The notes under the pieces are model-generated. The model saw nothing but the letters and a program-made list of their open reading frames with translations. It was not told the DNA's origin and made no database searches. Of a DNA stretch of 39,381 nt, positions 1-38,350 are shown in pieces (positions within the stretch are counted from its first letter, which is position 1; the number at the start of each line of letters is the position of its first letter). Source of the stretch: Bacteroidota bacterium. GTDB taxonomy: Bacteria; Bacteroidota; Ignavibacteria; Ignavibacteriales; Ignavibacteriaceae. Both the position numbers and the translations under genes were made by a program. The stretch is from assembly GCA_021824565.1 (NCBI GenBank), contig JAKAKL010000098.1, positions 1 to 39,381 on the forward strand, written 5' to 3'.

Positions 1-144
1 ATTCTTTATTTGCGAGCTTGATTTTGAATAGCCGTATTCAGAACCTAAATTCTTTATTTGCGAGCTTGATTTTGAATAGCCGTATTCAGAACCTAAATTT
101 TTTATTTGCGAGCTTGATTTTGAATAGCCGTATTCAGAACCTAA
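1..144. repeat. 48-bp direct tandem repeat, three copies reaching the edge
   Basis: Three contiguous 48-bp units (1-48, 49-96, 97-144) with a single difference (T versus C at the fourth base of the third unit). 48 bp equals 16 codons, so unit gain or loss keeps the minus-strand reading frame. The array may continue to the left of the window. Confidence 0.95.
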
Positions 145-363
145 ATTCTCAACTTGAGCAGAAGAATTTACCAGCGTTCTAGTTCTAAGATCGTAGTTGG
201 AAGTTCTAGTGCGGGTTACATTATTTGACTGAATTGTGCGGGTGGTTTGAATAACCTGGAAGCGAACTGCTTGCTGAATGTTATTCTTTTTGGCAGGTTC
301 TTTTGCTTGAACGGAAATAACAAAAGCACCTAATAATAAAAGTGTGAAAATAGTCCGGGACAT
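1..363 (-). CDS. Secreted protein with 16-residue tandem repeats, 3' end cut by window edge
   Basis: The frame is open from an ATG at 363 down to base 1 with no stop, so the gene is partial. The start is supported by a strong upstream AGGAGG. Residues 1-20 form a signal peptide (MSRTIFTLLLLGAFVISVQA). A polar, Thr/Arg/Asn-rich stretch follows (residues 21-72), and then three copies of LGSEYGYSKSSSQIKN continue to the edge. The repeats are identical in protein; at DNA level they are 48-bp units at 1-48, 49-96 and 97-144 differing by one silent base. A degenerate half unit (SSAQVEN) precedes the first copy. No enzymatic motif is visible; an exported structural or surface repeat protein is the simplest reading. 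The true length and whether a sorting domain follows cannot be seen. The function is unknown. Confidence 0.75.
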   Translation of the reverse strand, partial: MSRTIFTLLLLGAFVISVQAKEPAKKNNIQQAVRFQVIQTTRTIQSNNVTRTRTSNYDLRTRTLVNSSAQVENLGSEYGYSKSSSQIKNLGSEYGYSKSSSQIKNLGSEYGYSKSSSQIKN

Positions 364-1800: not shown

Positions 1801-2355
1801 CTATTTTGCCCAGTTATATCTTGAAAAATGAGGAAGCTGCGCATTGAAAATCTGCAATGTACCTGTACTAACGTTGATATAAATTGAATCGCTTTTTACA
1901 AGCTGGGTTGATCCATCCGGGGCAAAATAATAAAAATTAATCGCATTCGGATCTACGCCGGATAAATCAACTCCTGTAAATTTAAGATTTAGGATTACGG
2001 GCGTATTAAAAATCATTGAAGGCGAGAAGTCAATTCCAGCGTCATCGCCAATCTGCATTGTTATGTTTTCAGCTCCGTTATAGGCGCCGACAGGGACAGT
2101 CAGTTCGGCATCCATAGTAACTAAACCCATCCCTGATGCAAAACTATTATGAAGTTCTACCGTCCCTCCTTTATTTCCAACAATTAAATTGCTCGCAGAG
2201 AACACGGCTTCAACTGATGAAGATAATTTTGCAGGAAGCTTGATTGCGACTTTTGAACTTGTCTGTGGTTTTACCGGATTAGTATTTGTAGACAAATCCG
2301 AACATCCAAAATAAAATAAACTTAAAGCAAATAAAGCAAGTAATAATCTTTTCAC
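1801..2355 (-). CDS. Small lipoprotein with ZU5-like beta domain
   Basis: 184 residues starting with a lipoprotein signal: MKRLLLALFALSLFYFGC, with Cys18 in a plausible lipobox, so it is probably anchored to a membrane. A Ser/Thr/Asn/Pro-rich linker (19-36) follows. Residues about 60-135 contain GGTVELH, then VPVGAYNGAENITMQIG, which resembles the G-x-L...V-x-V-P-x-G-A-x...I-T pattern of ZU5-like beta modules in bacterial surface proteins. The C-terminal part contains a YFAPDG strand and ends HFSRYNWAK. It is monocistronic as far as visible, convergent to nothing. The exact role is unknown; the ZU5 assignment is by motif shape only. Confidence 0.75.
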   Translation of the reverse strand: MKRLLLALFALSLFYFGCSDLSTNTNPVKPQTSSKVAIKLPAKLSSSVEAVFSASNLIVGNKGGTVELHNSFASGMGLVTMDAELTVPVGAYNGAENITMQIGDDAGIDFSPSMIFNTPVILNLKFTGVDLSGVDPNAINFYYFAPDGSTQLVKSDSIYINVSTGTLQIFNAQLPHFSRYNWAK

Positions 2356-2564
2356 TTATAACTCCTATATGCTAAATAATAGTTTCTTAAATATACAATC
2401 AATATGCCACAAGACAAATTATTTATTTTTATTTGTTTAAGCCCTAATTGATTTAGCAATCGAGGAATCCTTGTAAATATTTCTTCCAATTATAGTAAAA
2501 ATTACTATTAGCTCAATCAGCAAAGATGCGGTGGAAGCATTATTAATTTGTGAAACTTTATTAA

Positions 2565-3944
2565 TTAACTTAGTAGTCCATCCAGTCTTGGACGTGAAAT
2601 GCCAAGCGCCTTAGCAGTTTTAAATTTATTTCCGTTCATTTTTGCCAAAACTTCCAGAGCATAAGCTTTAGTAACCTTTTTTAGGCTCGTATTCATATAG
2701 TTTATATCAAGATGAATGAACTGCGGCATTAAAGCAGCTTCATTCTGCCGCATATCCAGCTTTGTTGTATCGATGAAAAGAAGGTTGGAAAAATCTTCAA
2801 GCCTTATTGATTTGCTTTCACTGAGCAGGACCGCCCTTTCGATGGCATTGCGGAATTCGCGCACATTGCCGGGCCACGGATACTGCTTCATAAAATCTTC
2901 CGCCGATCTTTCTATCTTATTTATCGATTTGCCGAATAGATTATTAAATTCTTCTATAAAATTTTCCGCAAGAAGTAAAACGTCATCGCCTCTCGAACGC
3001 AGCGGCGGCAGTTCTAACGAAACTACATTCAATCTATGGTACAAATCTCTTCTGAACAAATTATCCTCTATCATCTGATCAAGATTTTTATTTGTCGCTG
3101 AAATAATTCTCGCATATATAGGAATATCGCCTGTACCGCCGAGTCTTCTAATTAATTTTCTTTCAATAGTCCTCAAAAGCTTTGATTGAATGTTTAAAGT
3201 AAGATCGCCTATTTCATCAAGGAACAAGGTACCTTCTTCAGCGACTTCAAACAAACCAAGCTTCCTATTTTTAGCATTTGTAAATGCGCCCGGCTCGTAT
3301 CCGAAGAGCTCAGATTCAAGAAGGCTTTCAGGAATAGCGTTGCAGATGATATCTACAAACGGGAAAAACTTTCTCATGCCGAACCTGTGGATAGCTCTTG
3401 CAAGATGCCCTTTGCCTGTCCCCGTTTCTCCAAGTATTAAAATGTTTGCATCATTTTGAAGAGCAACTTTTTTAGCAAGATTAATTACTTTCATAAAATC
3501 ATGCGATTCACCGATAAGAGAGTTAAAGTCATCATATCTTCCGGCTAAATAATAAGAGCTTCCCTCTTCCGTAATGAATGCGCGCGTATCGATTATTTCA
3601 TACATATAAGCAATGAACTTGTAAAGCTCATGCGGGAAGACAAAAATATTATTAAAGCCAAGCTTGACCAGCGTGCTTATAAGAACAGCGTCGTCACTTT
3701 GAGTTACAAATATGATTTTGTTTTTAAGTATGCTTCTCTCTTCAAGAACTTTATTAAGATATTTTGAGCGGATATTTTGTATTTGAACGATAACTATTTC
3801 GTTCGGGTGAATATCAAAGATCTTCGGAAAGCTTGAGCGGGTGTTTAGTTTTTTCAATTCAAGCTGTTTGACAAACGAGTTTAACGATGAAACATCTTTA
3901 ATGTCGGAAAAAATTTTTATTATTATTTTTTCTTTTGTCGACAA
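2565..3944 (-). CDS. Sigma-54-dependent transcriptional activator with pseudo-receiver
   Basis: 459 residues. Residues 1-120 have the alternating strand/helix look of a receiver domain, but the strand that should carry the phosphorylated Asp reads IVIVQIQN (50-57), so a phosphoacceptor seems absent. Residues 140-375 are the AAA+ domain: Walker A GETGTGKG (172-179), the sigma-54 contact loop as GAFTNA (219-224, canonical GAFTGA), Walker B TLFLDEIG (239-246), arginine region FRRDLYHRLNV (297-307), WPGNVRE (357-363). Residues about 427-459 are a Fis-type helix-turn-helix (ALGISRPRLDGLL). The start must be the TTG at 3944: an in-frame stop lies just upstream. It begins one base after the kinase stop codon, so translation is probably coupled. 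Family knowledge: it opens promoters with RNA polymerase-sigma-54. Confidence 0.92.
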   Translation of the reverse strand: MSTKEKIIIKIFSDIKDVSSLNSFVKQLELKKLNTRSSFPKIFDIHPNEIVIVQIQNIRSKYLNKVLEERSILKNKIIFVTQSDDAVLISTLVKLGFNNIFVFPHELYKFIAYMYEIIDTRAFITEEGSSYYLAGRYDDFNSLIGESHDFMKVINLAKKVALQNDANILILGETGTGKGHLARAIHRFGMRKFFPFVDIICNAIPESLLESELFGYEPGAFTNAKNRKLGLFEVAEEGTLFLDEIGDLTLNIQSKLLRTIERKLIRRLGGTGDIPIYARIISATNKNLDQMIEDNLFRRDLYHRLNVVSLELPPLRSRGDDVLLLAENFIEEFNNLFGKSINKIERSAEDFMKQYPWPGNVREFRNAIERAVLLSESKSIRLEDFSNLLFIDTTKLDMRQNEAALMPQFIHLDINYMNTSLKKVTKAYALEVLAKMNGNKFKTAKALGISRPRLDGLLS

Positions 3945-3945
3945 T

Positions 3946-6900
3946 TCAGATTCCCAGCTTGGTAATTATTTCCAAAGTTCTGCTTCGTTCAGATTCTTTA
4001 AGATATGCTTCATGTAAATGAGAATCTGTTATGTTCTCCGCAAAGTAATTAATTATTTCTTTAGCATAATGAAGATATTCCTTTGCCTTGCTGTAATTGC
4101 CTCGGTGGTAATAGTAATTCCCCATCTCAAACAAAATTTTCCACGTCAGTTCGGTTAGAGAAAAGTCTTCCATAACGCTAAAGGCAGAGATAAAATAATC
4201 AATCGGAGGTTTAAGGTTTGTACCGGGATTTATCATGGCAATTTTTCCAAGCATATACTCGCGCTCTGCAAAGAAGAGGACATTATCTTTAACCATTTCT
4301 TCAATTTCTTTTGAAACAAGAACAGCAGCGGCATCTTCTGTTTTATCAAATGCAATCAGGTTCTTTACAATAAGAATGGTAGCGGCGAAGTAATGTAACT
4401 TATCATTTTGCTTAAGAAATTCAGACTGCAAGGAATACAGTTTTTGAATATCCGTATTAGCAAAGCTTTCGCTTGCTTTTTCTAGTTGAAGTAAGTATTC
4501 AAATTGGGTTTTGTTTTTGTCGTTTATACTCCCCTCTTTTTCTAGCAAAGATAACTGATTAAATAGCTCCGAGAACCATTCATAATCACCAATTACTAAA
4601 AAAAGCTTTGAGAGAAGAAGTTGAGCTCGTAATTTTGTTAGTATATAGTCTAATTGAGAATATATTAATATAGAACGTTCAATTGACACATATGAATTTT
4701 GATACTCACATATATATAAATATAACTCCCCTAAATTTGATAGAGATTGCCCCACTCCAAGTTTATTGCCTAAACTTTGGAAAATTAACATCGCATTTTT
4801 GTAATTTTCAATAGCTTTAGGAATATTTTGTTTCTCATAATTAATGATGCCAAAATTCAAGAGTAGTTTGGCTTCTTCTTCTATACTACCTATATTTTTA
4901 TTTGATTGTAAAGAAATGTTCCACGATTCCTCTGCTTTATCATGATAGCCTTGTAGGTCGTAAATAATTCCTATGTTTTTCTCTAATTGTGCCACTCTGT
5001 TATTCATATTTAGACTCTTGTATATGTCCTTAGCTTTTTGAATATATAATAATGACTCGTTTAATATATCGTTTCGAAATAGTCCAATTAATCCCCAAAT
5101 ATTATAACATTTAGCTATGTCCATTTTTGTTGCATGTGGATTATTAATGACACTCTTGCAAAGGGTTATAACAGAATCAAAATTATTCAGCTCCAATTCA
5201 GCGCTCGCAATTTCTGCGAGGATAGTTTGCTTTCTCGTTTCATCTTCTATACGCGGCAATAATGTTTCAAAAAGATTTTTCCCGGCTTCATTTTCACCCA
5301 AACCAATTAGGCAGCTTCCTTTTACAATTAATATTTCTAATTTAAAATCTTCATCTTCTGCTTCGCTCAGCAACTCTTCTATTAACATAAGAGCCTGCTT
5401 GTTTTCACCGAGCTTATGATAAACATTAATCAGTCTAAACCGTATGTCGATTAAATCTTTATCTTCAAGATTTAGCTGGAGCAGATGCAGCAGAATATTT
5501 TTTTGATACGAGTATGTCGACAGCTTTTCCGATTCTTCGATTTCTTCTTTATAAAGCTCATAGCTTTTATAATGCTGTGAAGCGAGCTCAAAATGCCTTG
5601 CAATCTCAACCTTGTTGAACGAAGAAAATTTTTCTTTCAGCTTGTTCGCTATATCCAGATGATAATCCGGAGCGTTGTCAATTTGCAGATAAGCATATTT
5701 TTTAATTCCGTCCGAAGTAAAAACTATTCCCGCGCTTCTATTGTACTGCTGAATTATATTTTTGTTTTGCAGACTCGATATTATAGATGATATTTTTTCA
5801 GCGGCAAAATCCGTCAGCCGTGCAATCGAAGGCAAATCCAGCGTCGTATCAAAAGCAGAAATTAATTTTGAAATTTTAATTTCTTCCTCGTTTAGATTAC
5901 TAAAGCGCAGCCTGTATATTTCTTCCTGCGAGCCTTTAAGAATTGAAAGCGTTTCGTCTCCGGTATTTATATTAACCCCGTTTGGATCAAAGGTCGCAAT
6001 CTTCAAAAGGATAATATCGCGCAGGAATCCTTCGATGCTTCCCGGCAGCAGATCGGCATACTTGAGTATCAGTTTCTTTAAATCTTCTCTTGGAAAATTT
6101 TTGTAAAAGCTTTTAGTGATAAACTCATCAAGGTGAATTTCCGTAAACGGAATAAGATTTATTTCCCGCAAATTAAAAATAAAGCTTGATAAATAGCTGA
6201 AGTCGGAGTTTTCGGTTAGGATGACTTTAATTTTATTTACTTGAAGAATCGGAATTATGTTTTTAAAAACCTCCACAGCAAACTCATCATAAAAATTAAA
6301 CGCATCTAGAATCAACACAAAATTATTCTGCATCGAAACTGCGGTGAAAATAATTTTTAACTCCGAGATCAGATCCTGCGACGGCGAATTAAATATTGCA
6401 TAAATTTTTTCTTTTACTTCATCCGAAAGCTTTTCAAAAACAAATTGATTAAATACAATTTGTTTTAAAATTAATTTTATAAAATCGAACCCGGCTTTCG
6501 CCTTGTTGTTTTTTATAAGAATAACATTTTCATGACGGTAATATATTTCATCAACAAGCGAAGTCTTGCCCGAACCTTCAAAGCCCTTGATAGTAAAAAC
6601 TTCGTTGCTTGTTTCATCTTCAAAATAAGTTTTTAAAATTGTTAGGACGTCAGTCCGGTCGGAAAATATTTTTGCCGGCATCCAGTCTTTGCTAAGATTT
6701 TCATCGATCGGGATGTTTAGTTCCCCGAGCAGCTGGAGTGCATTCTGATATCTATCGTCGGGATTTTTAGCAAGTAATTTTCTTAAAGTATTAATCAACC
6801 GGCTGGAATATTTTGTTTCGGGAAATTCAAACTCTTTTTCAAGATGGGATTTATAAATCTCAAGCTCATTACCAGCTTCAAATGGAAATTTGCCATAGAT

Positions 6901-7509
6901 GAATTTGTAAAGCATGATTCCGAGCGAATAAAGATCGGCGCGATGATCGTGCGCTTCTCTTCTTAAAATTTCAGGAGCGATATATTCCGCGGTCCCTCTT
7001 ACAACTTCTTCTGTACTATGATAAATATTCTGAGCAAAGCCAAGATCGATCATTTTGATAAGCGGCTTTCCGTCAATCTCGTTTATCAAAATATTTTCCG
7101 GCTTCAAGTCGTAATAAATGTAGTTTGATTGATGCAGATAATATAAGACCGAGCAAAGCTGCTCTATTATCTTGCGCAGGAAATTTTCATCGGAAAGTTT
7201 TTTGCAGCCTGATAAAATCTCTCCTCTGAAATATTCCATCACAAAAAACATTGATCCCGCCTGGATATTTTCTTCTTCATCAAACTTTACTACGGAGCTG
7301 AATTCATTAGCTTTGATGATGTTCGGATGATCAAGCTTCCGCAGTGTGAAAAACTCGCTGCGGAAAATTCTTGTTTCCAATTCTTCGGCATCGGGCGGAA
7401 GGATTTTTACCGCAAGATCCGTTTCGGGAAATTCCACGTCGCTGCAGAGATAAACCTGGCTGCGTCCTTTTCCAATTTTATTTCTTATAATGTAACGTTC
7501 ATTAATCAT
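3946..7509 (-). CDS. Ser/Thr protein kinase fused to P-loop ATPase and TPR repeats
   Basis: 1187 residues, no transmembrane segment, probably cytosolic. Kinase domain about 6-265: glycine loop GKGRSQVY (13-20), Lys35 in LAVK, catalytic loop YYDLKPEN (132-139) where HRD is replaced by YYD, DLG for DFG (155-157), TAEYIAPE (173-180). A second nucleotide-binding domain follows: Walker A GFEGSGKTS (309-317) and Walker B FVLILDAF (397-404), resembling AAA/STAND ATPases. From about 690 to the end the protein is helical TPR repeats. The ATG overlaps the end of the upstream permease gene (bases 7502-7509), and the sigma-54 activator starts one base after its stop. This places it inside the peptide-transporter operon. 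A signal-transducing kinase controlling that operon or the regulator is inferred. Confidence 0.92.
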   Translation of the reverse strand: MINERYIIRNKIGKGRSQVYLCSDVEFPETDLAVKILPPDAEELETRIFRSEFFTLRKLDHPNIIKANEFSSVVKFDEEENIQAGSMFFVMEYFRGEILSGCKKLSDENFLRKIIEQLCSVLYYLHQSNYIYYDLKPENILINEIDGKPLIKMIDLGFAQNIYHSTEEVVRGTAEYIAPEILRREAHDHRADLYSLGIMLYKFIYGKFPFEAGNELEIYKSHLEKEFEFPETKYSSRLINTLRKLLAKNPDDRYQNALQLLGELNIPIDENLSKDWMPAKIFSDRTDVLTILKTYFEDETSNEVFTIKGFEGSGKTSLVDEIYYRHENVILIKNNKAKAGFDFIKLILKQIVFNQFVFEKLSDEVKEKIYAIFNSPSQDLISELKIIFTAVSMQNNFVLILDAFNFYDEFAVEVFKNIIPILQVNKIKVILTENSDFSYLSSFIFNLREINLIPFTEIHLDEFITKSFYKNFPREDLKKLILKYADLLPGSIEGFLRDIILLKIATFDPNGVNINTGDETLSILKGSQEEIYRLRFSNLNEEEIKISKLISAFDTTLDLPSIARLTDFAAEKISSIISSLQNKNIIQQYNRSAGIVFTSDGIKKYAYLQIDNAPDYHLDIANKLKEKFSSFNKVEIARHFELASQHYKSYELYKEEIEESEKLSTYSYQKNILLHLLQLNLEDKDLIDIRFRLINVYHKLGENKQALMLIEELLSEAEDEDFKLEILIVKGSCLIGLGENEAGKNLFETLLPRIEDETRKQTILAEIASAELELNNFDSVITLCKSVINNPHATKMDIAKCYNIWGLIGLFRNDILNESLLYIQKAKDIYKSLNMNNRVAQLEKNIGIIYDLQGYHDKAEESWNISLQSNKNIGSIEEEAKLLLNFGIINYEKQNIPKAIENYKNAMLIFQSLGNKLGVGQSLSNLGELYLYICEYQNSYVSIERSILIYSQLDYILTKLRAQLLLSKLFLVIGDYEWFSELFNQLSLLEKEGSINDKNKTQFEYLLQLEKASESFANTDIQKLYSLQSEFLKQNDKLHYFAATILIVKNLIAFDKTEDAAAVLVSKEIEEMVKDNVLFFAEREYMLGKIAMINPGTNLKPPIDYFISAFSVMEDFSLTELTWKILFEMGNYYYHRGNYSKAKEYLHYAKEIINYFAENITDSHLHEAYLKESERSRTLEIITKLGI

Positions 7510-8791
7510 CTTTTAACCGCGGGTTGAAAAATAAGTTAATATCTTTACCGAGACTGTTTGCCGCGTACAAGGTAAAGAATAAGCACAAGCCCGGAGGAAT
7601 TATCATCCACCAAGCTTGAGTTAAATAATTTTGCCCTGCTTCAATCATCGCGCCCCACGAAGGATAAAAACTTCCGGTACCTAATCCAAGATAGCTTAAC
7701 GCCGCTTCGGCTAATATTACGGCGCCGTATTCGAAAACAAGATTAACAATTACCGGAGCTAAAATAACCGGCAAGACTTCTTTCGTTAAAATTCTATACC
7801 ATGAAAGCCCCGACATCTTTGCCGAGAAAAAATAATCTTTATTTTTCAAAGATATTACTTCGCTTCTCACAATTTTAAATAAACTCATCCAGCCGGAAAA
7901 GCCGAGAACTAATATTACAGTAAATAAAGAATTCCCAAACAAAGCCAGGACAAGAATTACAAAAAATATTGCCGGGAAAGATAAAAACATATCGGTGATT
8001 CGACTGATACTTGTGTCGATCAATCCGCCAGGATAACCGGCTAAGAAGCCCAAAGATAATCCAAGGGCAAAAGACACAATCACCGAACCTAATCCGACAA
8101 ACAAAGATATTCTCGCGCCGTAAACTAATCTTGAAAAAATATCTCTGCCGTATTCATCTGTGCCAAGCAAAAATATTTTTTTTGTAATCACCGGTCTGCC
8201 TGAGGAAATTAAAACTGTATCCTCGGGTAAAATTTTTTCTTCACCAGATTGATATATCACCGCTTTGCCGTTTATTCTAACACTGTCGGCAAAGATAATG
8301 CTTTCATCAAAAGTATTCTTTTTTACCTTCTTTCTTAAATCAATAAATCGGTTGAAAATATTCTGGTCCTTTGCTTTTTGTTCTTTTAGGTGGATCACTT
8401 CAACAGAGCTAAACGGCGGCAGCAAACGCGTCTCGGTAATATTTTGCTGGAAGCCCGGGTTATTATTTGTTATTAAAGGAGCATAAATAAAAAAAATAAT
8501 TAATACAATTAAAATAAATTTTGTCGCCGTTATATTCTCTTTAAGTAAATTAATTTTTCTGCGGTACAGAATTATGAAGAGCGGCATTATTATAACAAGC
8601 AAAGCAGAAGAGAAAACATCGGCGAGCGAAAAGCTGAACTGCGAAAAAGCTTCGGTGAAATTCTTAAAAAATAATTCAGCATAAATTCCAATGAGCAAGT
8701 ATGAATTTATAATCAGAGTAAGCCTAAAGACCAGCATTAAAACAAATACTGATAAAAGGAAATGCCATATTCTAATTTTTACCTTCATCAA
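7502..8791 (-). CDS. oppC: Peptide ABC transporter permease, OppC/DppC family
   Basis: 429 residues, inner membrane. The C-terminal 220 residues are a standard BPD-transp-1 permease: LLGTDEYGRD (208-217) before the first core membrane helix, the EAA-like region around residues 330-350, and the AEAALSYLGLG segment. The protein is about 100-130 residues longer than typical OppC. The extra N-terminal part holds additional hydrophobic segments (about 9-40, 52-77, 90-108) and a hydrophilic stretch (110-205) before the core. It overlaps the upstream OppB gene by 4 bases (ATGA) and the downstream kinase by 8, so it is part of a tightly coupled operon. Substrate (oligopeptide versus dipeptide) cannot be told from sequence. 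Confidence 0.92.
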   Translation of the reverse strand: MMKVKIRIWHFLLSVFVLMLVFRLTLIINSYLLIGIYAELFFKNFTEAFSQFSFSLADVFSSALLVIIMPLFIILYRRKINLLKENITATKFILIVLIIFFIYAPLITNNNPGFQQNITETRLLPPFSSVEVIHLKEQKAKDQNIFNRFIDLRKKVKKNTFDESIIFADSVRINGKAVIYQSGEEKILPEDTVLISSGRPVITKKIFLLGTDEYGRDIFSRLVYGARISLFVGLGSVIVSFALGLSLGFLAGYPGGLIDTSISRITDMFLSFPAIFFVILVLALFGNSLFTVILVLGFSGWMSLFKIVRSEVISLKNKDYFFSAKMSGLSWYRILTKEVLPVILAPVIVNLVFEYGAVILAEAALSYLGLGTGSFYPSWGAMIEAGQNYLTQAWWMIIPPGLCLFFTLYAANSLGKDINLFFNPRLKDD

Positions 8792-9780
8792 TTAAGCATT
8801 CCTTTTATAAGCCGTTTATCAAACTTTACTTTTATAACATCAGCAATAAAATTTGTAATTATGACAAGTACGCCAGAAATAAATGTACACCCGACAACCA
8901 AAGGATAATCGCGGTTCAATATTGCGTTAACCGTTAATCTTCCCATCCCGGGCAATCCGAAAATTACTTCTGTAATAAGCGCTCCGCTGAATAAAAGTCC
9001 AAGCTCTACTCCGGCAACTGAAATCAACGGATTGATTGCGTTTGGTATAACGTGTTTCAAAGTAATTTGTTTTTCAGCAACTCCGTTTGCACGAAGATTC
9101 AGCACAAAAGTTTTGTTGTAAACATCTTCGAGATTTTCACGGAGATATTTATAATAAACCGCAATTCCGCTTAAAGACAGTGTTATCAGCGGCAGGACAA
9201 GATGTTCTAAATAATCCGCCATCTTTTGAACGAGAGAATATGAGCTGTTGTCAAAAGATGAAAGTCCTGACGATGGAAAAATATTTAGCAGCGAAGAAAA
9301 AATTAGAATCAGAATTACTCCGAGGAAAAACGATGGCAGCGCATATGCAATCAAGCTTAATTGAGAAAAAGTTTTATCTAATTTTCCATTAATTTTTTTT
9401 ATAGAAATTAACGCAAGAAAAAAACCGGCGGTTATCTGGATAATAAAACTTAATGTCGAAAATACTAATGTGAACGGAAGGAAATTCATAATGACAGCGA
9501 ATACCGGAGTTCTATATGTGTACGAAATTCCAAAATCTCCGCTTGCCAGATTTATTAAAAAAGTTTTATACTGGTTTAACAGCGGGCTGTCAAGATTGAA
9601 TGATTCTCTTATTTTTCCGGCAAGCTGCGGACTTAGCTCGGGCGAAATAAATTTTAACGACGGATCGCCGGGAGACAATCTAAGTAAAAAGAAAAGGAAG
9701 GTGATTAGTAAAAACAATACGACAATTGAAGAAACAACTCTTTTCAAAAGTATCGACAGAATTTCTTTCTTCATATTCAA
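8788..9780 (-). CDS. oppB: Peptide ABC transporter permease, OppB/DppB family
   Basis: 330 residues, normal length for the family, with about six membrane segments. N-terminal signature LLRLSPGDPS (about 31-40) and C-terminal loop with HVIPNAINPLISVAGVELG and FGLPGMGRL are diagnostic of OppB/DppB. It forms the membrane channel together with the OppC-like protein encoded immediately downstream (4-base overlap), and it overlaps the binding-protein gene upstream by 4 bases. The two ATPases that would energise it are on the other strand starting at 11523. Confidence 0.94.
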   Translation of the reverse strand: MNMKKEILSILLKRVVSSIVVLFLLITFLFFLLRLSPGDPSLKFISPELSPQLAGKIRESFNLDSPLLNQYKTFLINLASGDFGISYTYRTPVFAVIMNFLPFTLVFSTLSFIIQITAGFFLALISIKKINGKLDKTFSQLSLIAYALPSFFLGVILILIFSSLLNIFPSSGLSSFDNSSYSLVQKMADYLEHLVLPLITLSLSGIAVYYKYLRENLEDVYNKTFVLNLRANGVAEKQITLKHVIPNAINPLISVAGVELGLLFSGALITEVIFGLPGMGRLTVNAILNRDYPLVVGCTFISGVLVIITNFIADVIKVKFDKRLIKGMLN

Positions 9781-11441
9781 TTATTACTTACCGACCAGTT
9801 CCAAGGATGATAAACTGCACCAAGCGTTGTAATGTTGATGTCTTTTATTCTGCTGTTGTATGCTATATTATTATTTATCCAGTAAAGAAAAGTAACCGGG
9901 TTGTCGCTATAAATTATATCCTGCACTTCTTTAAAAAGCAGTCTTCTCCTAGCTTGATTTCTTTCATGATCAATTTCAATAAGCAGCTTGTCGACGTTTT
10001 TATTTTGATAGCATGAAAAATTCATAGGCGTATTCTGCAAATCGGAAAACCAGAAAGACTTAAGATCCAAAGGAATTGCGACAGACCACCCAGCCATCCA
10101 GGCGTTGAGCTGATGACTGAATACTTTTTGAAAAAATACTTGCGGTTCTAAAGATTCGATTTTCATATCTACGCCAATCTGCTTTAAATCGTTTTTAATA
10201 ACGGAAGCTGCAAAAACTCTTCGCGGGTTTCCCGATGGAATATAAAATGTAAAAGAAAATTTTTGTCCGTTCTTTTCAAGCACCCCCGAATTATTAACGT
10301 CTTTCCAGCCTTCGCCTGCTAAGATTTTTCTCGCTTGCTCTGGATCGTATGGCAAAGTCTTCAGCAAAGTATCCAGATCATTTTTAAATATCGGCGCTAC
10401 AGGACCGGCTGCAAGTTCTCCATGATCTTTGATAAAATCGTGGAGAATTTCCTGACGGTTAATTGCGTACGTCATAGCCTCTCGAATATTTTTATCGCCG
10501 AAAAATTTATTTGGAAGAATTTTTTTATTTTTTTGGTAAGCATCCGGATCGATGTTGCTCCACGCTGCGTAATCATATTCACGCCCTGTTATCTGGGTTA
10601 GTTTTACGTTTGATAAATTTTCAAGCTGATTTAAATCTTCCGCTTTCACGTCTTCCATAAAATCTATCTCACCGTTTTTCAACTGAGTAATGCGCGACGT
10701 ATAGTCAGGAACAATTTTAAATATCAGTTCAGAAGCACCGCCGGGTTTGTGTAAAAAAGACTTATCATTTTCTTTTAAAATTATCGCCTGGTTTTTATCC
10801 CACTTTGCCAAATAAAAAGGACCATCGGTAACAGGCTTTAATTGCTTTTCAACAGTAATTAAATTTTTCCGGTCAATATTTTTAAAGACGTGCTCCGGTA
10901 CTACCGGAAGGGCAAAATCGATATACGTAGGTAAAATTCCCTTTTTAAGATTGACAACTATCTTAAACGGATTTTCCACAATAAAAGTTTTCTTCAAGTC
11001 AATGCGCAGCGCAGTATCAACAGCAAAGCTTCTGAATATACCGTACCGGCTGCTTTGAATTGCCGGGTCTGAATAAAGGTCATAAGAAAAAATAACGTCG
11101 CTGGCAGTAAACTGTACTCCGTCGGACCAGTAAACATCTTTTCTAAGATCAAACGTAATTGATGTTGAATCTTTATTCCATTGCCAATCCTTAGCAAGCA
11201 TCGGCATTGGAATAAGCTCTCCGTCGCGTTCGTTCCAGTCAAAATCTATAAGACTCAAATAAAGCAAGGACGAAACATTTCCCTCGTCTTCGGTATATGA
11301 AAACAGCGGGTTATATGAATCTATGTCGGATGAAATTCCGATAATAATCGCGCCAGGATGTTCGTTGTTTTTTCTATTGCAGGAAGGGATGAAAATAATT
11401 ATCAAAAGTAAAATTATCAAACCGGACAGTTTAAGCTTCAT
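9777..11441 (-). CDS. oppA: Peptide-binding lipoprotein, OppA/DppA (SBP family 5)
   Basis: 554 residues, the usual size. Lipoprotein signal with lipobox IPSC, Cys21. Residues about 50-480 follow the family 5 solute-binding fold: SYNPLFSYTEDEG near the N-terminus, LAKDWQWNKDSTSITFDLRKDVYWSDGVQFTASDV-type region (typical W-x-DG-x-x-x-T-A-x-D-V), the REAMTYAINRQEIL motif, and PYDPEQARKILAGEGW. It captures peptides outside the inner membrane and delivers them to the two permeases encoded downstream (4-base overlap). First gene of the minus-strand operon; the 81-base gap to the divergent ATPase genes must hold both promoters. The start ATG has no strong ribosome binding site. Confidence 0.93.
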   Translation of the reverse strand: MKLKLSGLIILLLIIIFIPSCNRKNNEHPGAIIIGISSDIDSYNPLFSYTEDEGNVSSLLYLSLIDFDWNERDGELIPMPMLAKDWQWNKDSTSITFDLRKDVYWSDGVQFTASDVIFSYDLYSDPAIQSSRYGIFRSFAVDTALRIDLKKTFIVENPFKIVVNLKKGILPTYIDFALPVVPEHVFKNIDRKNLITVEKQLKPVTDGPFYLAKWDKNQAIILKENDKSFLHKPGGASELIFKIVPDYTSRITQLKNGEIDFMEDVKAEDLNQLENLSNVKLTQITGREYDYAAWSNIDPDAYQKNKKILPNKFFGDKNIREAMTYAINRQEILHDFIKDHGELAAGPVAPIFKNDLDTLLKTLPYDPEQARKILAGEGWKDVNNSGVLEKNGQKFSFTFYIPSGNPRRVFAASVIKNDLKQIGVDMKIESLEPQVFFQKVFSHQLNAWMAGWSVAIPLDLKSFWFSDLQNTPMNFSCYQNKNVDKLLIEIDHERNQARRRLLFKEVQDIIYSDNPVTFLYWINNNIAYNSRIKDINITTLGAVYHPWNWSVSNN

Positions 11442-11522
11442 TATGTTTTACCAAAATATTTTCAGAATTTAAATGATAATTTATTATTTTGTCGGCTAAA
11501 TACAAATAATTGATAAACAAAT
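11442..11522. promoter_or_regulatory. Divergent promoter region between the two halves of the peptide transporter
   Basis: 81 bases separate the ATG of the binding protein (minus) from the ATG of the first ATPase (plus). Both transcription units of one transporter must start here or overlap, so co-regulation from a shared site is likely. By eye I find no GG-N10-GC pair typical of sigma-54 promoters in it. Confidence 0.6.
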
Positions 11523-12257
11523 ATGCTTAACGCTATTATAGATGAAATTTCCGTAAACGAAAGACTTCTGCTCAGCGACATTAAATTCAAAATCGAGCAA
11601 AATAAAATTTACAGCGTGCTTGGCTCAAACGGCTCAGGAAAAACTACATTAATAAAATCTTTATCCGGTCTTCTCGATAAAAGATTTTATTCGGTCAAAG
11701 GAAAAGTCTTCTATAAAGAGCTTGACCTTCTTTCCGCCGGTTATGAGCAGATGCTTTCAATTAGAAGGAAAAAAATCAAATACGTTTTTCAAGACGCCGT
11801 AAACAGTTTCGATCACCTTAAGAAATTTGAATATTATTTTAAACTAACTGCCGGTAAAGATTCCGAACTGGAAAATCTTTTAGACTATTTTTTACTTCCC
11901 GGGGTGGAAAAGTTATTCCGGCTTTATCCTTACGAAGTAAGCGGAGGAATGGCGCAGCGAATAAGCTTTGTGCTGGCTCTTCTGGCTGATCCTGAGATTT
12001 TAATTTTAGATGAACCTACTTCCGGAATTGACTCTGCAATTTCAAATTTATTTTTGCTGAAGCTGAAGGAATTTGCGTCAATACAAAATCATACTGCACT
12101 TCTTGTAACTCACGATATTAAGTTCGCAAAAAAAATAAGCGATGAAATTGCTTTTATTTCAAAAGGCAAATTTTATAATTTTGTTCCGGCTCTAAAATTT
12201 TTTGAAAACGAAAATATCATAATCAATAACTTCTTGACACTGGATATCTCTTTTTAG
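11523..12257 (+). CDS. Peptide ABC transporter ATPase, OppD-like (short form)
   Basis: 244 residues. Walker A GSNGSGKTT (34-42), Q-loop Gln90 in YVFQD, signature SGGMAQR (140-146), Walker B ILILDEP (159-165) and the switch His in VTHD. It is clearly shorter than usual OppD (around 320-350 residues) and lacks the C-terminal extension. It sits 2 bases before the second ATPase and divergent from the binding protein and permeases, so the two ATPases probably form the heterodimer that powers them. Both genes also fit nickel/dipeptide-type importers, which share the fold. Confidence 0.9.
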   Translation: MLNAIIDEISVNERLLLSDIKFKIEQNKIYSVLGSNGSGKTTLIKSLSGLLDKRFYSVKGKVFYKELDLLSAGYEQMLSIRRKKIKYVFQDAVNSFDHLKKFEYYFKLTAGKDSELENLLDYFLLPGVEKLFRLYPYEVSGGMAQRISFVLALLADPEILILDEPTSGIDSAISNLFLLKLKEFASIQNHTALLVTHDIKFAKKISDEIAFISKGKFYNFVPALKFFENENIIINNFLTLDISF

Positions 12258-12259
12258 CA

Positions 12260-13045
12260 ATGAACTTTTTATTAAAGCTTGAAAACATTAGTTATTCTGT
12301 TCGGAATTCTTCAAGCAGAAAAGCTGAAAGCACGAAGGTAATTCTGTCGGATATTAATTTTGAACTTGCAAAAGGAAAAATATTAGGCTTTGCCGGAGAA
12401 TCCGGCAGCGGTAAAACAACTCTCGCTAAAATTATAGCCGGAATAATAAAGCCCACGGAAGGAAATATAATTTCAAACTTTTCTGATGATTGGGAAAAAA
12501 TAAAAACATACCCTGTGCAAATTCTTTTTCAAAACAACGGCGACATTGTAAATCCTTTGAGACAGATTGAAGCTGTAATCGACGAGACTTTGCAAATTAG
12601 AAACAGAAACAAAAATATTTTTCATGAAAAAGAAAAAATATTCGACTCTCTAAATATTTCGAAATCAATAAGGACGAAAAAAGGATATGAGTTAAGCGGC
12701 GGCGAACAGCAGCGCGCGGCGCTTGCAAGAATACTTGCAGCCAGACCCGAATTGATGATCCTTGATGAACCATTTTCGGCACAAGACCCTGAATCGCAAT
12801 GGAATTTTTTGAATCTTTTTAAGAAGATAAATAACGAATATAAAATGACTATGATTTGCATCGCTCATAATCTTTCTCTGCTAAATAAACTCTGCGACGA
12901 AATGATAATTTTATATGATGGGAAAATTGTGGAAAAATCATTATCGAGCGAACTGTTTAGTTCCCCGAACCATCCTTATACAAAATTTCTTCTTAAAGCG
13001 GGAAATTACGATCTGAAATATGATGAACTAAAATTTTCCGAATAG
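12260..13045 (+). CDS. Peptide ABC transporter ATPase, OppF-like
   Basis: 261 residues. Walker A GESGSGKTT (46-54), Q-loop Gln91, signature LSGGEQQR (145-152), Walker B LMILDEP (165-171), switch His in IAHN. The C-terminal SPNHPYTKFLL segment is the start of the oligopeptide-transporter ATPase tail, truncated compared with full-length OppF. Starts 2 bases after the first ATPase stop, so the pair is co-translated. Only 23 bases separate it from ybaK, which is probably read from the same transcript. Confidence 0.9.
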   Translation: MNFLLKLENISYSVRNSSSRKAESTKVILSDINFELAKGKILGFAGESGSGKTTLAKIIAGIIKPTEGNIISNFSDDWEKIKTYPVQILFQNNGDIVNPLRQIEAVIDETLQIRNRNKNIFHEKEKIFDSLNISKSIRTKKGYELSGGEQQRAALARILAARPELMILDEPFSAQDPESQWNFLNLFKKINNEYKMTMICIAHNLSLLNKLCDEMIILYDGKIVEKSLSSELFSSPNHPYTKFLLKAGNYDLKYDELKFSE

Positions 13046-13068: not shown

Positions 13069-13536
13069 ATGACTAAAACAAATGCAATCAGGATTTTGGA
13101 GACGAACAAAATCGTGTATTCGGTTCATGAATATGAAGTAGATGAAAATGATCTCAGCGGCGAAACAGTCGCTGGGAAAATTGGCGCAAGCAAAGAAACA
13201 GTTTTTAAAACGCTCGTAACCGGCGGCGACAAAACAGGTATAAATATTTTTTGCATTCCCGTAGCGGCCGATTTAAATTTAAAAAAAGCCGCGCTCGCAT
13301 CGAGAAATAAAAATATTGAAATGATTAAAGTGAAAGATCTTTTTAATTTAACCGGTTATATTCGAGGAGGATGTTCGCCCGTCGGGATGAAGAAAAAATA
13401 TCCCGTTTTTATAGAAGAGACGGCGCAGCTTTTTGAAAATATCTATATAAGCGCCGGAGTGAGAGGAATGCAAGTCTGTCTTTCTCCATTTGATTTGCGA
13501 AAGATAACCGATGCTGTTTTTGCTGATCTTATCTAA
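13069..13536 (+). CDS. ybaK: YbaK/EbsC-type aminoacyl-tRNA deacylase
   Basis: 155 residues, the full length of the family. The opening KTNAIRILETNKIVYSVHEY, the FKTLV segment, the PVAADLNLKKAA segment (with catalytic-pocket Lys) and TGYIRGGCSPVGMKK are characteristic of YbaK/Cys-tRNA(Pro) deacylase. Family knowledge: it hydrolyses cysteine mischarged on tRNA-Pro in the cytosol. The presence of GGCSPVGMK makes YbaK more likely than ProXp-ala relatives. It follows the ABC ATPases by 23 bases on the same strand; no functional link is obvious. A hairpin at 13541-13567 lies right after the stop. Confidence 0.93.
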   Translation: MTKTNAIRILETNKIVYSVHEYEVDENDLSGETVAGKIGASKETVFKTLVTGGDKTGINIFCIPVAADLNLKKAALASRNKNIEMIKVKDLFNLTGYIRGGCSPVGMKKKYPVFIEETAQLFENIYISAGVRGMQVCLSPFDLRKITDAVFADLI

Positions 13537-37186: not shown

Positions 37187-38350
37187 ATGACGCCGCAAAT
37201 AAACCGGCACGCCGCTAAAACTAATGCTTTGTATTCTGCGTCTTTTCATACTGATGCAAACACCCAAACTATTCCTCAAGGAAATTTCTATACAGAAGAT
37301 AAAACTTCAGCTTCCGGCGCTCTGTCTTTTTATTCCGCAGAGAAAACCTCCGATACGGCGGCGATAACTTCGTCTGCTTCTGCATTAATTTCTATATCTG
37401 CGGTGAAAACTTCGAGCTGTTCCGCGCTAACTTCGAGCTGTTCCGCGCTAACTTCAAGCTGTTCCGCGCCAACTTCAAGCTGTTCCGCTCCAACTTCGGG
37501 GTGTGCGGTGCTAACTTCGAGCTGTTCCGCGCTAACTTCAAGCTGTTCCGCGCCAACTTCGGGGTGTGCGGTGCTAACTTCGAGCTGTTCCGCACCAACT
37601 TCAAGCTGTTCCGCGCCAACTTCAAGCTGTTCCGCGCCAACTTCAAGCTGTTCCGCGCCAACTTCAAGCTGTTCCGCGCCAACTTCGGGGTGTGCGGTGC
37701 TAACTTCGAGCTGTTCCGCGCTAACTTCAAGCTGTTCCGCGCCAACTTCGAGCTGTTCCGCGCTAACTTCGAGCTGTTCCGCGCCAACTTCGAGCTGTTC
37801 CGCGCCAACTTCGGGGTGTGCGGTGCTAACTTCGAGCTGTTCCGCGCCAACTTCGAGCTGTTCCGCGCCAACTTCGGGGTGTGCGGTGCTAACTTCGAGC
37901 TGTTCCGCGCCAACTTTTGGGTGTGCGGCGGAATTTTTTGTATCTGACGTCATAATTTTTGCTTCCGATGCGTGGATTTTTAATACTTTTCTTACGAAAA
38001 ACCTTTGTTTCTTTCAGTTTTCGAGTTTTTTTCAACCCTGCCGCAAAATCGAATTAAAAATGCCGCTAATAACCATAAGTTTAGGTTTTAATTTAAACTT
38101 CAACTTAAAGAGGCTGTCAGAAAATTCTTTATCAAAGAATAAATATTCCATTATCCATTTCGCTACAGACGGAGTTCCTATTATAATGAGAGATAAATTT
38201 TCCGCAAGCATGTCACTTCTATCCTGGTTCAATTCTTTTTTTAATAACCCTGAGAGATATGCTTATATAACCGGACGCCATAAAACCAGAGCGGTGCATG
38301 CGCTCAATGTAAAAAGTAATTTGCTTTATGAATTTTATGAGTATCAATAA
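37187..38350 (+). CDS. Possible Thr/Ser/Cys heptad-repeat protein across minisatellite 2 (doubtful)
   Basis: 387 codons from the ATG at 37187 (or 459 from TTG 36971). The array reads TSSCSAL, TSSCSAP and TSGCAVL in this frame. Degenerate heptads of the same pattern (KTSASGA, KTSDTAA, ITSSASA) extend back to about 37302, and this frame stays open there, while the opposite-strand frame (37330-37953, heptads AEQLEVG and TAHPEVG) stops at 37330. That favours the plus frame slightly. Against coding: no signal peptide, no clear ribosome binding site, over 50 Cys in the array, and a C-terminal part with no domain. An equally fair reading is non-coding repeat DNA. Confidence 0.3.
   Translation: MTPQINRHAAKTNALYSASFHTDANTQTIPQGNFYTEDKTSASGALSFYSAEKTSDTAAITSSASALISISAVKTSSCSALTSSCSALTSSCSAPTSSCSAPTSGCAVLTSSCSALTSSCSAPTSGCAVLTSSCSAPTSSCSAPTSSCSAPTSSCSAPTSSCSAPTSGCAVLTSSCSALTSSCSAPTSSCSALTSSCSAPTSSCSAPTSGCAVLTSSCSAPTSSCSAPTSGCAVLTSSCSAPTFGCAAEFFVSDVIIFASDAWIFNTFLTKNLCFFQFSSFFQPCRKIELKMPLITISLGFNLNFNLKRLSENSLSKNKYSIIHFATDGVPIIMRDKFSASMSLLSWFNSFFNNPERYAYITGRHKTRAVHALNVKSNLLYEFYEYQ
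37330..37953 (-). CDS. Alternative acidic heptad-repeat frame on the opposite strand (doubtful)
   Basis: 207 codons, ATG at 37953 with GGAAG about 9 bases upstream. The array reads AEQLEVG/AEQLEVS with TAHPEVG at intervals; Ala and Leu in a/d-like spacing could form a helix broken by the Pro units. It ends inside degenerate repeats. Only one of this frame and the plus frame, if either, is likely to be a gene. Confidence 0.25.
   Translation of the reverse strand: MTSDTKNSAAHPKVGAEQLEVSTAHPEVGAEQLEVGAEQLEVSTAHPEVGAEQLEVGAEQLEVSAEQLEVGAEQLEVSAEQLEVSTAHPEVGAEQLEVGAEQLEVGAEQLEVGAEQLEVGAEQLEVSTAHPEVGAEQLEVSAEQLEVSTAHPEVGAEQLEVGAEQLEVSAEQLEVSAEQLEVFTADIEINAEADEVIAAVSEVFSAE
37409..37933. repeat. Minisatellite 2: 25 units of 21 bp, no indels
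   Basis: Exactly 25 contiguous 21-bp units. Type A: ACTTCRAGCTGTTCCGCG plus three bases; type B: ACTTCGGGGTGTGCGGTG plus CTA. Type B occupies units 5, 8, 14, 20 and 23, and a decayed B is unit 25 (37913-37933). Degenerate units precede the array from about 37302. Not a CRISPR: there are no spacers. Confidence 0.95.

Follow-up and report, generated by a model that had tools for sequence, protein, structure and literature searches.

Gene content of the locus

The window, meaning the whole stretch of DNA analyzed here (39,381 nucleotides), is the entire contig C10 of an Ignavibacteriaceae genome of 4.59 Mb. Its cluster encodes an Opp-type transporter, a protein that joins a Ser/Thr kinase to an ATPase and a TPR solenoid, and a sigma-54 activator. 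Beyond the activator, the same strand runs on into lipoprotein and repeat-protein genes, which are absent from an earlier note on this DNA (Table 1). The gene names given in that note are borne out by Pfam and NCBIfam: SBP_bac_5 for the solute-binding protein, BPD_transp_1 for the two permeases and ABC_tran for the two ATPases, which together make up a complete Opp/Dpp importer set, as well as Pkinase at residues 8-255 with TPR matches for the kinase and Sigma54_activat for the activator. The spacings it had claimed proved exact, with overlaps of 4 bases between oppA and oppB, 4 between oppB and oppC, and 8 between oppC and the kinase gene, a 1-base gap between kinase and activator, and, by ORF coordinates, divergence of oppA and oppD across 81 bases.

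Table 1. Features of the cluster, with positions in the window
Feature	Position	Strand	Remarks
Repeat-protein gene, 5' part	1..363	minus	Truncated at contig end; other end of array on contig C34
Repeat-protein gene product			Signal-like N-terminal stretch, N-I-x-x-A-x-R-F region, then 16-residue repeats SSSQIKNLGSEYGYSK
-24/-12-like element TGGCATAATGGTTGAA	418..433	minus	54 bases upstream of repeat gene
Lipoprotein gene	1801..2355	minus	C-terminus HFSRYNWAK; single copy in own genome
-24/-12-like element TGGCATATTGATTGTA	2394..2409	minus	38 bases upstream of lipoprotein gene
Sigma-54 activator	2565..3944	minus	Receiver-like domain without phospho-acceptor Asp
Ser/Thr kinase - STAND-type ATPase - TPR solenoid	3946..7509	minus	Pfam, alignment, predicted structure
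oppC	7502..8791	minus	Pfam/NCBIfam; long N-terminal extension
oppB	8788..9780	minus	Pfam/NCBIfam
oppA, solute-binding protein	9777..11441	minus	Pfam/NCBIfam
oppD-type ATPase	11523..12257	plus	Pfam/NCBIfam
oppF-type ATPase	12260..13045	plus	Pfam/NCBIfam

None of the Opp proteins reached an equivalog cut-off in the NCBIfam scan, and the families therefore do not fix the substrate of the transporter. In OppC, about 240 residues precede the permease domain, with several stretches that are hydrophobic by eye. Downstream of oppDF lies a ybaK-type deacylase gene (13069-13536), a neighbor that recurs in many f1 relatives. Two tandem repeats were also noted: one of 42 bases (4.9 copies, 1105-1311) between the lipoprotein and repeat-protein genes, and one of 63/21 bases (8.1/24.2 copies, 37408-37916) in which several frames are open.

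A predicted kinase-STAND-TPR protein encoded beside Opp

The kinase protein is 1187 residues long. Full or near-full homologues are present in 32/59 close relatives, a hand count that takes in the window's own genome and two homologues in pieces. A profile of the ATPase-TPR part matches 43/245 genomes of the class (E<=1e-30) and 21/395 genomes of a phylum sample (E<=1e-40), none of the latter outside the class. A scan with this part yielded 34 loci, from Bacteroidetes bacterium, Ignavibacteria(les), Ignavibacteriaceae, Ignavibacterium, Melioribacteraceae, and bacterium BMS3Abin03.

In an alignment of 30 kinases, the invariant positions include the catalytic Lys34, Asn138, and Asp154, the P-loop Lys314 and Gly, and Asp401; the catalytic-loop Asp133 is retained in 90% or more. 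The middle region has no Pfam match at E<=0.001; its assignment as an ATPase is supported by a conserved P-loop and by the predicted structure, for which a STAND-TPR protein is the best match in the PDB. The model (mean pLDDT 86.8, pTM 0.52) has, besides the kinase and NTPase, a stretch that resembles a winged helix and an extended helical solenoid, with boundaries drawn by eye. The solenoid is predicted beyond residue 600, and TPR matches are found in the protein. The best PDB match of the model is 6mfv (TMq 0.21), and the next 49 among the matches listed are kinases. The predicted architecture is that of a STAND ATPase followed by a TPR sensor. MalT is such a STAND ATPase with a TPR sensor; it answers to an ABC transporter and is controlled by MalK. 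Kinase-STAND fusions, such as PknK, exist as well. The present protein resembles MalT, STAND-TPR regulators, and PknK in its STAND ATPase with a TPR sensor, but here the kinase would act on a sigma-54 activator encoded as a protein of its own, and the kinase protein itself has no visible DNA-binding domain.

This arrangement is conserved in related genomes. Of 57 kinase-bearing genomes inspected for gene order, 47 have oppC immediately upstream of the kinase gene, which upholds the tie to Opp that had been claimed for this protein, and 46 have the activator gene immediately downstream of it (adjacencies counted by hand); both adjacencies exceed what chance would give. An order confined to a single genome, named beforehand as evidence against the earlier note's reading, is therefore ruled out. 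The sample does not take in G093, G112, G146, and G187, four class genomes that are kinase-positive, nor the contig of G066 on which the kinase lies. In L104, opp is upstream of the kinase gene with lipoprotein and TPR-protein genes in between; five f2 genomes (L052, L063, L065, L066, L067) have opp genes near the kinase that are rearranged or incomplete within the stretch; and four f18 genomes have no opp operon adjoining it. In L109 and L110, the activator is placed after the kinase and then a lipoprotein-TPR pair, and the contig of L108 stops before any activator position.

The slot after the activator is filled in relatives by a lipoprotein gene, a repeat gene, or both, the repeat label being a lenient one and the repeat gene of L118 doubtful. 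In L114 (17032-17760) and L124 (17471-18361), a repeat gene sits at the opposite side of the cluster, in the oppA-oppD or the oppD-oppF interval, and the units of L124 are mostly of 15 residues. Genome G057 carries two kinase copies (L052 4161-7727 and 14039-17605), each followed by a lipoprotein gene and a TPR-protein gene.

The activator has no visible His-Asp relay

The activator has the features of a bEBP, an AAA+ domain with a GAFTGA-like loop and a Fis-type HTH: it matches Sigma54_activat at 1.5e-60, the residue after GAFT in the loop is N, S, D, Q, or G among 25 aligned sequences, and a Fis-type HTH was matched in a relative. In a model that is only fair (mean pLDDT 70.0), strands and helices of the N-terminal domain follow one another as in a receiver, and its PDB neighbors are NtrC4, NtrC1, and LuxO (TMq about 0.33-0.36). 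Aligned with a canonical regulator from its own genome, the activator shows SD, Q, and F in place of DD, D, and K, and the phospho-acceptor position is occupied by Q, K, or Y in aligned relatives. Because the phospho-acceptor Asp and the Lys of the receiver-like domain are replaced, no His-Asp relay is visible, in agreement with the earlier note. The activator thus shares its receiver-like, AAA+, and Fis-type HTH domains with NtrC-type activators (NtrC1, NtrC4, LuxO) but differs from them at both residues, and a role as an NtrC-type two-component response regulator was rejected on account of the missing Asp.

Elements of the -24/-12 type precede the secreted-protein genes

The loci contain 63 matches to the pattern TGG[CT]A[CT]N5TTG, and 56 of these fall outside any same-strand frame of at least 300 bases; for the pattern read backwards there are 31 matches, with 7 outside such frames. 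Upstream stretches that agree in their final 120 bases were counted once, and genes with less than 250 bases upstream were excluded. On this basis, an element is present at most 250 bases upstream of 24/46 lipoprotein genes and 15/21 repeat genes (39/67 combined), and of 6/393 other cluster genes. The latter comprise 3/43 TPR-protein genes, 3/48 activator genes, and 0/302 opp, kinase, and ybaK genes, with 0/232 for opp alone, so that sigma-54 control of the opp genes themselves was rejected. The backward control pattern lies upstream of two lipoprotein genes and no other genes.

In the window's own genome, the strict consensus TGGCACN5TTGCW has 2 matches, and a close form of the element has 13 against 4 for the backward form. 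Two of the own-genome matches precede the repeat and lipoprotein genes, and others precede flgB, FliL-like, and Hsp20 frames (by eye). A scan of the window with two mismatches allowed found 12 matches where 15 were expected, not above chance, and the elements therefore rest on place and recurrence. They are plausible sigma-54 promoters. We infer from position which activator serves them; other activators share sigma-54 elements. A -24/-12-like element also stands before a gene for a 440-residue protein near activator-less clusters (L060 11987, L062 17255).

Repeat arrays and lipoproteins as candidate precursors

The N-terminus of the repeat protein is Sec-type by eye. Its units are near-identical within a genome and different between genomes. 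Among 25 majority units, 22 have a terminal K or R (by eye), and unit ends read, for example, LGSRYGWVR or LGSRYAFAK. Eighteen of the 19 arrays that reach a stop finish at a unit end, the exception being L040, in a count that omits masked units and the masked stretch of L041; the far end of the window's own array on contig C34 likewise stops at a unit end. The 30 array stretches read, some of them opposite ends of a single array, were compared codon by codon on internal units or, in stretches of up to three units, on every unit. Differences are purely synonymous at 159 codon positions and change the residue at 24, whereas about 22% of single-base changes would be expected to be synonymous. The peptide sequence is therefore held by selection, and the repeat unit is under purifying selection.

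The lipoprotein has no Pfam or NCBIfam match and looks like a folded domain. As judged by sequence, lipoprotein C-termini resemble the end of a repeat unit: in 49/61 distinct family members the C-terminus lies within two residues of the motif HFS-x-[YF]-x-[FWY], and in 12/61 it does not. K or R is the last residue after an HFS-type end in just 24/61. The count took in lipoproteins whose frame has a Cys among its first 70 residues, and thus leaves out, for example, the one from L116. In 40/50 cases, a lipoprotein gene is followed, no more than 1.5 kb away and in the same orientation, by a gene for a Rap-sized TPR protein (about 400 residues), sometimes with another lipoprotein gene in between. 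Against the PDB, the profile of this TPR protein picks up RapF, RapJ, and Rap3T at 1.3e-14 or weaker, with better scores for designed and eukaryotic TPR proteins.

Secreted repetitive proteins are frequently structural, and the folded appearance of the lipoprotein would suit a surface structure. The repeat protein and lipoprotein would then form an adhesin, a matrix, or an amyloid-like assembly regulated by the kinase and activator, with Opp recycling breakdown products as feedback. A curlin-type amyloid was considered, and the curlin-type repeat profile had no match (E<=0.1) in L053, the one repeat protein scanned. The finish of the arrays at unit ends and the terminal K or R of the majority units also speak against a structural role, which leaves the tie to a cytosolic TPR kinase unexplained, and we regard it as improbable. 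Multi-core precursors exist, and the cluster could in principle make a ribosomally produced peptide, antimicrobial or modified, whose precursor carries several cores, Opp serving uptake or immunity. The Sec-type N-terminus and the lack of a modification enzyme among the scanned genes of the window cluster (relatives' loci are only partly annotated) make this highly improbable.

The kinase and the secreted proteins occur together

Among class genomes, a lipoprotein was detected in 38 of 43 kinase-positive genomes (E<=1e-8), repeats in 13, and at least one of the two in 42; at first calling, 2 of the 202 kinase-negative genomes had a lipoprotein and none had repeats. Five genomes were searched again. 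A contig-cut kinase was found in G066, a negative with a lipoprotein, and G157, the single positive with neither lipoprotein nor repeats, gave only generic TPR matches and was rejected as kinase-positive. Lipoprotein and/or repeats are then present in 43/43 positives versus 1/202 negatives (Fisher 2e-47), a statistic in which related genomes are not independent, both profiles stem from kinase-adjacent loci, and the two reclassifications (G066, G157) were made once the lipoprotein result was known. In one stretch of G157 (L203), many TPR proteins are encoded in a row, with no relation to the kinase cluster.

These results bear on a MalT-like alternative, in which the STAND-TPR part senses food peptides or resting OppDF and sets envelope proteins, the repeats being no signal. 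The adjacency of Opp, kinase, and activator fits such nutrient or transporter-state sensing, as do the kinase-STAND-TPR architecture and the STAND-TPR protein found as best structural match. However, it leaves unexplained the homogeneous arrays under purifying selection, the near-exclusive co-occurrence with secreted proteins, and the placing of elements before secreted-protein genes with none before opp. We consider it unlikely, with a modest chance of being correct.

A proposed peptide autoinduction loop

We propose, with a probability of about 0.58, that the cluster forms a peptide autoinduction loop, in which a secreted precursor is cut and the peptide, re-imported by Opp, is sensed by TPR so that the kinase drives the activator. 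The earlier note had taken an imported peptide or the transporter state as the signal. Because the elements precede the secreted-protein genes and none of the 232 opp genes, the signal is instead most likely a peptide cut from the cluster's own secreted protein. The repeat protein and/or the lipoprotein would be exported by Sec, and a protease encoded outside the cluster would free a peptide ending about S-[RK]-[YF]-G-[FW]-x-[KR], with the array supplying several copies per precursor. The peptide would be taken up by OppABCDF and bound by the TPR solenoid of the kinase-STAND-TPR protein. The kinase, putatively by phosphorylation, would alter the activity of the neighboring sigma-54 activator via its Asp-less receiver-like domain, and control would run from there to the -24/-12 promoters of the repeat, lipoprotein, and often-following TPR-protein genes, which the activator would turn on. 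The signal may pass between cells or report on the producing cell alone; the peptide might even stay confined to the periplasm, in which case the loop would monitor export and proteolysis in the cell itself.

In an exploratory comparison of unit and protein distances, residues 10-16 of the unit covary with OppA at 0.44 (17 genomes) and with the TPR part at 0.43; values for OppC, OppB, and OppD are 0.38, 0.37, and 0.32, and those for the kinase domain, activator, and STAND part are 0.24, 0.22, and 0.16. Partial values for the same residues are 0.22 for TPR and -0.20 for STAND. For residues 1-9, the activator is highest at 0.50, with the TPR part at 0.26, and the whole unit gives 0.57 for OppA, 0.46 for the activator, and 0.44 for both TPR and OppC. 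The covariation of unit and TPR part is weak; it fits the loop model and proves nothing.

Counting for the loop are the gene order kept across the class, the candidate precursor genes right behind the activator, the selection on the repeat units, the unit-like lipoprotein ends, the co-occurrence, the -24/-12 elements, and the Rap-sized TPR protein; in addition, OppA was found elsewhere in the genome in 6/6 f18 genomes searched whose kinase has no adjoining opp operon. Other observations count against it. Among the cluster genes there is no protease; a 16-mer would have to pass the outer membrane, for which the loop offers no explanation; 8/57 genomes (seven f2 genomes and G174) have no activator within the fetched stretch around the kinase; 28/67 lipoprotein and repeat genes are without an element by the strict pattern; and only 13/43 kinase-positive class genomes have repeats. 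The HFSRY end may be merely the last strand of the lipoprotein fold. Genome G257 has opp and four lipoproteins, with no kinase of this family found. Its four lipoproteins read HFSEYGFVR plus added residues, ends that are suggestive only, coming from one genome.

Relation to known peptide-sensing systems

In enterococcal pheromone systems, a peptide derived from the signal sequence of a lipoprotein is brought in by Opp-type import and read by a TPR receptor, whereas here we propose the lipoprotein C-terminus as the source. Among the matches listed in open-licence literature, none describes the present system. For Gram-positive bacteria, signaling in which cytosolic TPR receptors read re-imported peptides has been described (PMC12998947, PMC10075063). 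The RRNPP systems of Bacillota combine a secreted precursor with a re-imported peptide that is sensed inside (PMC10075063, PMC7425212), and several pheromones per precursor are known among them (PMC11343458). AloR-AloP of Paenibacillus polymyxa is similar to our cluster in its many adjacent genes for TPR receptors and secreted peptides but differs in having HTH-TPR receptors and short pro-peptides, with no kinase or sigma-54 part (PMC7425212).

The cluster resembles RRNPP(A) systems (Rap-Phr, PlcR-PapR, NprR, Rgg, PrgX) in that a putative secreted precursor, Opp, and a candidate cytosolic TPR receptor are encoded together. The C-terminal TPR region of a cytosolic receptor has its counterpart here in the predicted solenoid and the TPR matches, alongside the separate TPR protein, and the secreted proteins that would act as precursors adjoin the activator. 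By contrast, RRNPP(A) systems have HTH-TPR or Rap proteins where this cluster has a kinase-STAND-TPR protein and a sigma-54 activator; the units here are of 16 residues; and the hosts are Ignavibacteria instead of Bacillota. Membership was rejected for the candidate receptor, which has a kinase and STAND in place of an HTH or Rap-type helical bundle, and we therefore call the system RRNPP-like.

Collectively, we see an even chance that this is an export-and-reimport pheromone system in Ignavibacteria. It would comprise genus- or species-specific 16-residue arrays together with a lipoprotein C-terminus, a dedicated Opp, a kinase-STAND-TPR receptor, a sigma-54 activator driven without His-Asp chemistry, and extra lipoprotein-TPR channels akin to Rap-Phr. 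The units offer exact peptide sequences open to synthesis and testing. If the proposal is true, a version found class-wide in Ignavibacteria, with kinase and sigma-54 output, would widen communication by re-imported peptides, and an orphan kinase-STAND-TPR family would gain a ligand.
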